Of a stretch of 64,000 bases of DNA, positions 44,701 to 50,700 are shown piece after piece. A program made the position numbers and the translations under genes. This stretch comes from Nautilus pompilius (Eukaryota; Mollusca; Cephalopoda; Nautilida; Nautilidae): assembly GCA_018389105.1 (NCBI GenBank), contig JACATO010001201.1, positions 1-64,000 on the forward strand, written 5' to 3'. How positions within the stretch are numbered: position 1 is the first letter of the stretch; the number at the start of each line of letters is the position of its first letter. The notes beneath the pieces were generated by a model, which searched no databases, was not told where the DNA came from, and was given only the letters and a program-made list of their open reading frames with translations.

Positions 44701-47700
44701 TTTATTTGATTTGTTATGTCTTGCAGTAATTATTGATAAAAGCTCCATTAAACTTCAATGCTTGCTTTTCTTGCTGGTGCATCCATCTGTTGTATACTGT
44801 GATTGCCATGGTGAAAGTGAGTTGGAAGTCGTCTGGATTTAGTGAAGAGTTGATGCCAAGATTCATCTGTGCATTTTCCCACTGTCTTACTTGCAGAAGT
44901 TTCTTCTGGGTACTACAGTTTCTCTCACTTTGAGCCGATGGAAGCAACTTCTGGCTCAGAACATTGTTGCTTTTGACTTGCCATGGCTAGATTGTTTGCA
45001 ATCTTTAATTTATCGTGAGTTTGTGTGCATGGAATTAATGCACTCTTATTATAACTTCTATAGATAAACTTTCGAATTTCTTAATAATAATCAGCCAAAT
45101 TTTATGGCTCCCCCCCCCCTCCATTTTACAATACAAACTTTGATAAATAGCCCAAGGATGGAGGTCAGGTCAGGTCAGGTCAGTGGACTGTTTTACTTTG
45201 TTGCAGATTGAGTCGATGCTTCCTGCTCATTGATGCAGGATCTGGAATTTGTAATGCTGACCAGACAGGGATAGAAATGATGGAAGAGTTTAAAATTCCT
45301 TATGCTGTAAGTCTGAGGTTGTATACTTCTCTTTTTTTTCCCCAGTTTAACCTCTCCCTGGCAAATCAATTCTTACTTAGGCTGTTTTGAAGACTCATTA
45401 ACTTCAGGCAGTCACGTAAACCTGAACAGCAGATCCCCTTTAATTTCTGAAGTGGCCCAGAATTGTTCCTACAGGCATTTTTTTTTTTTTTTTTTCTGCC
45501 TGCCTTTTCAGAACACAACTGCTGTGGGCACCATGTCTGTCCCAAAGTGCACTGCAGTTTGGTTCTTGAAAGAGCAGCAAAGCCAATGTGGCTTACGCAT
45601 CTTCCCTCAGGAAGAAAGATATCTATCAACAGAATTTATACTATGGCTATTATCTTCATTTGCTGGTGCCTTGATCCTTTTTATTTACTATTCTATTAAT
45701 AATTAATGCCTCTAATAATTCTAACTGTAGAGAGGTTTTTAATTGTTTTGGAAACTTCTTTCAGGTTTCCTCTTACATGTCTGAATCTGACTGGGTAACT
45801 AACACTTTCTTGGTTATTCACCGTATTCTAAATATTGGAACCATGGAAATCTTTCAGTTAATGTAGGCATCTCTACACCACAATATTTGAGATGTGGAGA
45901 GAGAGAGAGAGAAATTTTTTTCATAATTCTTTGTTTAGTTGAACATTTTGATTAATTAATGATCTACAAAAGGTTTTTGTTTTTCTTTATTTCATCACCA
46001 CATTTAGCAAATATGCAGGGATCTTCCCTGTTTTCAGGAAAATATGAATGTTCATTGGTACGTCAGCCTCTGCAGTCTTGCATTATGGGAAGGATTTCTT
46101 AATTATTTGCAAAATGATAAACTTTGAGATTCCATGTTTTTTCTTAGTGTAATCATAAAAAGGGAAAAGAAATTGTTAACTTTAAGAGTCCTTAGTGCAT
46201 TGCTTCTGTAGGACGGTTGGTATTTTAGGCAACAGATGGGAAAAACCTGTAATGGGCATGGAGCGCACATACAGCTCCTCACTAGAGCCGTTTATTTTTA
46301 GATTCTTTAGGAAACTCGCACAACCGGCTAGTGAAGAAGAGTACCGAGAAATTGTGCTGGTATGCCAAACTGAGACTGCCACAAGCAGGGATCAGACTTG
46401 GAGAAAACCCTAACCGTTGGGGATCACCAGCTACCAATTAAAAAGCGATTAAATATGCAAGGCAAAGCGAACAGAATGTATACATTTCTTAGAAAAGATT
46501 ATCGTTGTTTTCTTAAAATCTGTCTCTAAGTTATGCCTACCAAATGGTTTTTATCTTCTTAGCATGATAAAGATATATATATATATATCTTTATCATGCT
46601 ATGTATTTCCTGTACGCCATTTGAAGATGCTGAGATATTACCCAGTTACTGGGAGATTTAGTTTCACTGTTACCAGGAGACAGATCATGAACTTATTACA
46701 AAAACACCTGGGAAGAGGGGGTGGCTTAACAAAAAAAACTTAATTTTGTAAACTGGTTTATGCCAATCTCACTGCCACCAACCATCGCTAGTATTTTATT
46801 CCATTAGTTTACAGTCAGTTCTATTTATTGCTAAAATATACTGCTGCTGTTTTGTTTTCTTGTTTTTCCAATATCATTCTGCACTGATTCTTCAGCCACC
46901 CTTTTTTTTCTAGCTACAACTCCTAGAATTCTCTCTTGGGAGCCAAACGAATTTGCGACTGCCTCCATGTTCAAAACCCGTAGTTGTTTCAAACCACTTA
47001 TCAGGTTTTCCTTGAAACACCCATTACCCAGGCTGGGTATGTCTAATATTTCAAATCGTGCACAGCTAACTGGCCGTGTTTTGAAAATGTAAGACTTCAG
47101 CAATTTGTAAATGCTTATTCAGAAAAGAAACAATCTAGTGATGAGTGCATTTTAAATTCTGCTGTCTAATGGTGGTTGTGTTCGAGATTTTGAATTTCTT
47201 AACCTAAAATTTGATAAAATTCTAAGCTCTGCCATGAATCCACCCTTTTTCTTATACATGAATAATGGAGTGACATACGAAAAACTGATTGCAATCCTTC
47301 CGTAGTTAGGTAATCAAATAAAACTAGCTTATATCTCGTGACAGTCACTGCAAGAATTCCATGTGAAAACTTAACGCGAGGACAAAAGTTGCTTCATTTG
47401 TGAATATAAATTACTTCCTTTCTGCTTTTACTATTTATGTTGTATGAAAAACTACATATAGTGGAGACATTTAAATGAGACCTGGTTGGATACGCTCTTA
47501 GCGATTCTGTCTAGCTGCGGTTAATTTGAATGTTCCTTATAAATACTATTTTTTTTTTCCTTTCACAAACATTTTGTGTCGTTTTCCCCCAGTAAACTCC
47601 AGATAAGTATCTCGCAGTTAAAATGATTTCTTTGTAGATGATGTTTTATAGAAAGAAGACGAGGATAGGACTACAGTTATGTTGATTTTCAGAATAGAAA

Positions 47701-50700
47701 AAATATTAAATTTAATTCTGTATTGGTTCAACATTTTTTCTCTCCCTTTTTCTTTTTTGTTAGTCTGAAAATGACTTTCGTGTTGATTGATGGGAAAATC
47801 GGCTTCACGAGGACTGATGAGTTGTATCTGCAGAGGTTCAGAGAGCTAAACACTATGCTGGCCGTAAGCTTTGTTCTACGCTGTTGTACAACTATGGGCA
47901 AGTGTTGACATTTCGAGTAAACCAGAGCCTGCCATGCATTACTCCAGTTTGCTGCACGTCAGCGCGAGCCCAATGTGATTGTCCTCCACCACATTATCAC
48001 CATCTTCCAAGTCAGTATTGTAATTGAGGATTGGCTGCATAATTTGAGGCTTCTCTTTGTCTTTCTGTGGGCCTGGGAGTTGCTGAATCCACCTCAGCAT
48101 CGCCAGGCAAGGTTGGCAGTAGTTGGAGAGTGAAAAAACGTCATAAGGTTTCAAGCACCCACTAAGGCATTAATTATGTAACTTTGTTATTTAATGGAAT
48201 TTGCATAACCGATAAACTTTTGTAAAAAAAAAAAAAAAAAGATTTTTAAAAGAAGTGATTAGCTCTTACATTTAGTTATTGATAAGCAAATAAAATTGTC
48301 ACGTAGTTTTTTCTACACTTGTTGGAATCTGTACTTAATTTTTAGAAAGTAGGGGATTAAATCAGGCATTCTACATCCTTCTAGTAGTGGTAACTGAATT
48401 TATCTTTAAATCTGACAAATGGCACGCATTAAAGGTGTCGTATTATTTTTGTGAAAACAGTAGTTAATAGAGGTGTAGTGATTATGAGAGTGCCAGAAGA
48501 TTTCATAGGCGATATGAGGCGATAGGTTTATATGATGATATTAAGATCTTAATATATTTCATACCACTGACCTTATAGCTGGCAATGAGAAGCAACCTTT
48601 TTAAAATAGTCTTGTTCTGCACTTATCCCTTTAATGGGTATGATGTGGTGATACAGCCTTTAACATGGTAGTTTGTAAATGCGTGGATTAAGTTATCAGC
48701 AAATCCAGTTAATAGTGAAGTATGAATCATTAAAAAAAATAATGTGCATAAATATCTTTTAACTGCTGAATTAAACTTTCCCAGTTCTGCTGAAAGGACT
48801 CTCTAGCACTTGGACATTAAATGTTTCTAAGAGTATTGTCGTCTTGGGAAAGAGGACCATTTAAAGTGCATCTAATGCTGGGAGGATATATCCAAGAAAG
48901 AAAATGAAATGTTGCTGCTGTAATATGAGCCAACTGTTGAGTAGCCAGTCATGAAGCAGAGGTTTGGTTTGTTTGCTTTTCTCTAAACATATTTGTTAGT
49001 CATTGCCTTGCGAAAACCACCTTGAGTTTTATTTATTTGCTTCTTTTTAAACAACTAATTTTGGTATATAGCACAAAACACCACTGTCGGATTTATCAGA
49101 ACTAACTGTAACATCTCATCCCGATTAGGGTTGTCTCCCCTAGACATGGAACTTTCATGTAAAGAGAGAACAGCAATAATTGCAAGAGAGAAAAAATTCA
49201 ATTTGCTGCGTTCAAATAAGTCAAAAACCTAATTTTGGTGGGGAGACCTTGTTCAGTGCAGCAGTTTATTCACCAGTTGAAAAGCATTTTATTTTGACTG
49301 CCCCTTTTTTTTAAAAAAAATTTTTAGCTTCTACCATAATTTTGCCTTCCATTGCAGATTGTATTGACCAAGGTAGACAAGGTGAATAGGCATCAACTGT
49401 TGAAGAATCTGTTTTCTGTCATGAAAGTCAAAGACTCCAACACCCACTGCTGCTTTTCCCAGCCTTTCATTGTTAGGTAAGTTGATAGCTGGTCGTGAAA
49501 CTTTGGTAAATGAAGCTCTGCCATATCCTTAGGTCTCTTCCGCAATGCCACTTGGCTTGTCATCACATGTTGGCTGGCCTTTCTGATGGCTTAGTTGCTT
49601 CTTTTCTTATATGCTTGCTTGCTTGCTTGTCCTTCTTTCCTTGTCTTTGGACACACCAGTTGCCCGTTATGATGTCAGTCTGCTGCAGCCATAGGCAGGC
49701 CTTAATTAGAGCCTGGCTGGCCACATCACAGGCTTCACCAACTGTCTCGCTCTTGGATGTTCATTATTGAGAATCCGTCAGGATGACTACAACTTGCAAT
49801 AAGTAGATCAAAGTAGCTCTTGAACAATGGGAGGAAAGAAACATTACTGTCAGTCTGTCGTGTGTCAGTAAGTATTGATGGATGTGATAGAATTCATGGC
49901 TGTTATTCTGTGAATACGTGATGTGAGATTTGATAATTTAAACTCTCCTTATAACATCGAAGTTTCATGTAGAAGCAAGTAGAAGGGAACTCAAAAGTGC
50001 ACAATACATCTGTTTTGTTTTGATTTTTTTGAAAACTATTTCACACAATTGCTTGTTGCTTCATACAAAACAATTAAAACATTGAACACTAGTGGGCCAT
50101 GAAGGAGGAGGGCCATTTGAATGAGACTAATCACCGCCTGACTTCATAATTGCTGAGCTTTTACTCCAATAATCCCAGCTTTGTCAAAGTATGAATCAAA
50201 ATTAAATAAAACAGCTGAGAAAGCTGGAATTATTGAAGTGAAAGCTCAGCAACTATGAAGTCACGCTCTGTTTACTCCCTCTGAAATGTCTTCAGCAGCA
50301 TTGGATTGTAACGAATTATTTCTGTATTTGTGTTCACCATGGATACAAAAGAAATTTGGTGGCTAGATAATAATTTTAAAAAAACCCCTTGAGAACTGGT
50401 GCTGTTTATAACAAATGCTAGCCCAATTACTCTTCTAAATTTGCTAGACTATTTGGTGCCTTATTAGGAATTCAACTTTTACCTTATTGGACGCAATCTG
50501 TGTTTGTGGCTTTTCCTTTTACAAATTTTGCACAAGAACAAGAAACTACACCATTCTTATTTTAAGGGAGAGAATCCTTGCGCTACACAAGGCTCTTGAA
50601 AGTTTTTTTTTTTTGTGTGTGAATATTTTAATTTATAAATATTAATGTTTATCGTGTTAAAATTTACAGTTTTAGAGATTCAGAATTTACTCCAAATGTT

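Follow-up and report, generated by a model that had tools for sequence, protein, structure and literature searches.

The stretch analysed here (the window) comprises 64,000 base pairs (bp), bases 1-64000, of contig JACATO010001201.1 from the cephalopod Nautilus pompilius; genome-wide searches covered the 727.6-megabase (Mb) assembly of 2,558 contigs. On the forward strand, at 35837-52493, we modelled a six-exon gene for an EngB-type (GTPBP8-like) GTPase, whose product has 290 residues and whose exon 4 is present in two versions, 4A and 4B (Table 1). An earlier note, made from the sequence alone, had proposed such a gene with tandem duplicate exons between the G3 and G4 motifs, and our analysis bore this out. 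In the spliced model the G1, G3 and G4 motifs follow one another in the expected order. The start codon in exon 1 was our choice, and exon 1 alone gave no NCBIfam family match above chance. At the other end, the SSV of exon 6 is placed by frame and motif and is presumed to be G5.

When the fragment encoded by exons 3 to 5 was scanned, its top family was TIGR03598 (ribosome-assembly GTPase YihA/YsxC, EngB), with 87.2 bits (expect value, E, 1.1e-24) for the 4A form and 84.0 bits (E 1e-23) for the 4B form. Both scores are under the whole-protein cut-off of 124.45, the scanned sequence being a fragment and not the full-length protein. Among solved relatives, T. maritima EngB was the best for both forms (48.8 bits for 4A and 51.4 bits for 4B). 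Bacterial EngB/YsxC and trypanosome mt-EngB (3pqc, 1sul, 6yxy) show the same G-domain order and motifs, but in every sequence compared they carry one version of the segment, and the Nautilus protein has five residues fewer after DMPGYGF. From its family and motifs, and because the genome matches include no other gene of EngB type, we infer that the gene is the GTPBP8 orthologue. Human GTPBP8 is described as mitochondrial and required to form the large mitoribosomal subunit (PMC11229512, PMC10654211); the mitochondrial location and large-subunit role of the Nautilus product are carried over from the human protein.

Table 1. Exons of the GTPBP8-like gene and sequence elements at the two exon 4 acceptors.
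Feature	Position	Strand	Content	Support or property
Exon 1	35837..36178	+	Start codon, N-terminal region, stops short of G1; donor GTGAGT	Open frame and spliced model
Exon 2	37288..37386	+	G1 motif GRSNVGKSS	EngB profile 31.8 bits; TIGR03598 30.1 bits in genome search
Exon 3	41762..41892	+	GHTRTMNF, G3 motif DMPGYG	EngB profile 35.6 bits; TIGR03598 33.7 bits
Four tandem GGTCA units	45163..45182	+	Directly ahead of 4A acceptor	Supply competing AGs
Exon 4A	45207..45306	+	Version A of strand beta-4 and next helix	100 nt, phase 2 to 0
4B acceptor	47725..47763	+	Strong pyrimidine tract	C/T at 19/20 scored bases
Exon 4B	47764..47863	+	Version B of strand beta-4 and next helix	100 nt, phase 2 to 0
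Exon 5	49358..49476	+	G4 motif TKVD, common to both forms	EngB profile 14.7 bits; genome search
Exon 6	52412..52493	+	Presumed G5 region (SSV), stop	In-frame end of spliced model; weak profile support, 1.0 bit

When re-read on the sequence, the coordinates that the earlier note gave for exons 3, 4A, 4B and 5 proved correct. Exon 3 ends at 41892 with the donor AA/GTAAGT (the slash marks the exon border). The description of the pair as two exons of 100 nucleotides (nt) each, entered in phase 2 and left in phase 0, with GT-AG borders and a gapless alignment at about 27% identity, was reproduced throughout. Exon 4A has the acceptor TTGCAG and the donor GCT/GTAAGT, and exon 4B has TTGTTAG and GCC/GTAAGC. 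The two encode the same residue in 9 of 33 full codons (27%), and 13 of the 33 pairs are BLOSUM62-positive. At the nucleotide level 43 of 100 bases are identical, distributed as 13/33, 18/33 and 12/34 over codon positions 1, 2 and 3.

Inclusion of 4A alone or 4B alone gives 290 residues. At 100 nt, neither exon is a multiple of three in length, so the frame is lost when both are included and equally when both are skipped, as the note had claimed. When 4A is joined to 4B, codon nine of 4B reads TGA and the protein ends after residue 232, and splicing exon 3 straight to exon 5 reads K-L-Y-stop and ends it after residue 193. Counted on the sequence, the two premature stops precede the next exon junction by 73 and 109 nt, so nonsense-mediated decay (NMD) would be expected to clear transcripts of both kinds. 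Two further sites adjoin the pair: an upstream AG would give an in-frame 133-nt 4A (45174-45306), and a GT nine bases further on an in-frame 109-nt 4B (47764-47872). The vertebrate protein suggests that 4A may be the canonical exon.

To find how well the pair stands out, a profile of the segment was built only from 80 bacterial EngB proteins, kept from 591 relatives, and applied to 800 candidates, namely the open AG..GT intervals of 88-112 nt with matching phase on the two strands of the window (396 + 404). Exon 4B led the ranking with 11.7 bits, followed by 4A as the next distinct interval with 5.7 bits; a longer 4B scored 11.5 bits, a shorter 4A 5.5 bits and the top unrelated interval 3.6 bits. 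Among 32,151 candidates from one strand of random sequence (7.68 Mb, dinucleotide frequencies kept), none reached 11.7 bits (best 9.5), and 24 reached the 5.7 bits of 4A. The two exons also found each other when no family profile was used: 4A retrieved 4B as the top of 165 intron candidates, and 4B retrieved 4A as the top of 157. Their BLOSUM62 score of 36 was matched in 0 of 20,000 residue shuffles of 4B, and their identity in 5 of 20,000 shuffles of 4A. The profile ranking, the random-sequence control and the reciprocal retrieval together rule out that 4B is a chance open frame. On the other side, a six-frame, splice-free search of the window with a whole-EngB profile found neither exon significant alone (4B 6.8 bits, E 0.72; 4A 4.7 bits, E 3.2), and 4B was outscored by an unrelated frame (63841-63698, 7.5 bits). 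The pair is significant because its borders, phase, length and place are added to the profile score. The six-frame profile search recognised no additional copy of any EngB exon in the window, exon 4 included.

The residues of the two segments point the same way. Asp 10 and Asp 19, found in all 80 bacterial segments, are retained in 4A and 4B alike. Arg 12 (present in 76 of the 80) and Pro 15 (in 77) are missing from both exons, which have in common Gly 14, a residue that only 2 of the 80 possess. These shared gains and losses fit two copies of one GTPBP8-type exon. The first half of the segment is more family-like in 4B (Asn 1, Lys 3, Thr 16) and the second half in 4A (Ile 31, Pro 32). The idea that 4B is plainly the more bacterial of the two holds by the segment profile, but neither by identity nor in seven of nine solved EngB-type proteins: over the 80 bacterial segments, identity was higher for 4B in 24, higher for 4A in 30 and tied in 26, with means of 7.3 (4B) and 7.5 (4A) of 34 residues. 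A pattern search of viral contigs for animal relatives gave seven stretches, none of them a relative.

Exon 4B might be a relic, that is, an old duplicate which is unspliced or spliced at noise level and whose frame, borders and resemblance were kept by luck. In simulated drift from 4A, however, copies that stayed open and scored like 4B numbered 0 of 20,000 at full distance and 1 of 20,000 at half, and at full distance there were none in 5,000 trials from any of three high-scoring bacterial segments. These controls required neither intact borders nor the absence of indels. In addition, the pyrimidine tract of 4B (95%) is the strongest among the six acceptors of the gene, the other five having 65-75%. 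Selection on 4B is likely, not proven, as judged in one genome, and we regard the relic explanation as improbable.

Several observations nevertheless weigh against two selected and functional isoforms. Three of them also favour a relic: at half distance, 17, 65 and 34 of 5,000 open copies drifting from the three bacterial starts still scored like 4B; the second half of 4B strays from the family, with Arg 25 at a position hydrophobic in 96% of bacterial segments and Thr-Met where the family has Ile-Pro at 31-32; and the evidence for two isoforms is the sequence of one genome. Furthermore, the 4A form outscored the 4B form against 7 of nine solved EngB-type proteins and against TIGR03598, and the Pfam MMR_HSR1 gathering score of 21.9 was passed by the 4A fragment (23.4), with the 4B fragment slightly under it (20.3). 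Finally, the demonstrated part of the exclusion is the frame rule alone.

The changes in the helix bear on what the second form would do. Positions 25, 31 and 32, which are conserved in bacterial EngB, are altered in 4B, and the net charge of the segment goes from -2 in 4A to +1 in 4B. Both features would suit a situation in which the two exons are spliced but the 4B form acts as a brake or weak GTPase, regulatory or dominant-negative, instead of as a second assembly factor. Since G1, G3 and G4 sit in the shared exons, both forms could bind GTP, and this, together with the two invariant Asp residues kept in 4B, makes a brake a quite unlikely role.

We found no second copy of the gene in protein and profile searches of the 728-Mb genome. 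Whole-genome protein searches put exons 3, 4A, 4B and 5 on this one contig, and the other matches were weak (E at least 0.36). TIGR03598 gave ten matches in the genome, of which two are exons of this gene; the four that we inspected among the other eight look like other NVGKSS-type GTPases. An assembly error that placed 4B here wrongly from another GTPBP8 gene is not supported by these searches, and we found nothing in its favour. As 4B also lies in the correct order, strand and phase, we consider a misassembly highly improbable.

How the two exons would exclude each other was examined through their splice signals. The 4A acceptor lies behind the competing AGs of the GGTCA units, with an AG-free stretch of 21 nt ahead of 4A compared with 64 nt ahead of 4B. 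Because 4B has the strongest pyrimidine tract and 4A lies behind these AGs, use of 4A may require repression of 4B. A mechanism based on branch-point proximity, as in OGDH, does not fit, as judged by the length of the 4A-4B intron (2,457 nt) and the 64-nt AG-free stretch ahead of 4B. Incompatibility of U2 and U12 sites is not supported either, given GT-AG borders and ordinary donors. The 4A-4B intron also contains a perfect 42-nt palindrome of two 21-nt arms with no spacer (46560-46601).

RNA pairing gave a weak lead. A part of intron 3 at about 42593-42692 pairs with the 4B acceptor with a folding energy (dG) of -29.6, compared with a shuffled mean of -22.3 (standard deviation 2.1). No shuffle of 40 was as low, and this was the sole standout of 12 pairs tested. 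Purine and pyrimidine tracts are involved, for which reason the pairing is only a lead to a possible docking and selector element. Among 141 inverted pairs in a scan, one is a 28-nt purine element, 79% complementary (44267-44294 versus 47736-47763), which we take for a purine/pyrimidine match and nothing beyond that. Beyond exon 5, the following intron carries an inverted repeat at 50114-50288, with 73-nt arms that are 81% complementary and 29 nt apart, which could be a small non-autonomous transposon.

Three other open frames were noted in the window. A 172-codon frame on the reverse strand (27391-27909) matches Pfam PF04104, the large subunit of eukaryotic/archaeal DNA primase (4.2e-6), and belongs to a neighbouring gene on the opposite strand. 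A 188-codon frame on the forward strand (25432-25998) has only weak Pfam helix-turn-helix matches and may be the remnant of a mariner-type transposase. The third, of 279 codons on the reverse strand (20967-21806), has no Pfam match at E 0.1.

Mutually exclusive splicing is a well-known mechanism, and its occurrence in GTPBP8/EngB is apparently unreported. The earlier note had stated that no such exons were known in GTPBP8; in agreement with it, we found no report of mutually exclusive exons in GTPBP8/EngB in a literature search that reached few subscription journals and had annotation databases outside its scope. Automatic annotation may already list both isoforms. The nearest likeness is with the human class of mutually exclusive exons defined by frame shift and NMD (PMC5740500, PMC9741552), which likewise consists of adjacent exons of similar length and the same frame that encode similar residues, with one region swapped and the frame shifted upon joint inclusion. 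In contrast to that class, the identity of 27% is low here and the pair is known from genome sequence alone. GTPBP8 is not mentioned in the main text of these surveys. Reads joining the two exons were tolerated in the human survey where a frame shift results (PMC5740500), and joint 4A-4B reads would be tolerable here likewise, because joining shifts the frame.

Mitochondrial proteins offer further parallels. OGDH exons 4a and 4b (PMC7969005) also provide two exclusive versions within a nuclear gene for a mitochondrial protein, and their combined length, like that of 4A and 4B, is not a multiple of three. Exclusion in OGDH works through distant branch points near the donor in a short intron, whereas the GTPBP8 intron is 2,457 nt long. 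SLC25A3, the mitochondrial phosphate carrier (PMC5740500), likewise has mutually exclusive exons but, as a carrier, is neither a GTPase nor a ribosome factor. For RCC1L (PMC7423155), alternative splicing likewise produces two versions of a factor for mitoribosome assembly whose functions differ; these are set apart by an alternative last exon or an early stop, unlike the duplicated exons described here. Gtpbp8 is listed among alternatively spliced genes in a mouse study (PMC9852879), whose relevant passages do not give the type of event.

Taken together, we think it likely that an old tandem exon duplication gave rise to the pair, that selection kept both copies, and that mutually exclusive splicing yields two tuned GTPases. 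The exon for strand beta-4 and the next helix of a GTPBP8-type GTPase would have been duplicated long ago and both copies retained by selection on the protein. Exon 3 would then be spliced to either 4A or 4B and on to exon 5, as the observed borders and phases allow. The outcome would be two full-length GTPases with everything from G1 to G5 in common, except for one 34-residue segment of the core. These would most likely serve as two large-subunit assembly factors tuned by tissue or condition, which is the least certain step.

According to PMC10654211, trypanosome mt-EngB docks on an intermediate of the large subunit, next to Mtg1 and mt-EngA; a changed helix could alter contacts of this kind. 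Whether the animal swaps beta-4 and its helix within the G domain of GTPBP8 so as to obtain two differently tuned routes of large-subunit assembly, according to tissue, stage or stress, is a tentative idea that we would put forward as possible and somewhat doubtful. Its interest lies in the position of the swap, at the centre of a housekeeping GTPase for ribosome assembly. EngB-type GTPases are treated as single housekeeping factors. If true, two natural versions of a core segment on one scaffold would be a ready-made experiment on the role of the helix in ribosome contact or the GTP cycle, and would suggest that splicing can tune mitoribosome assembly.

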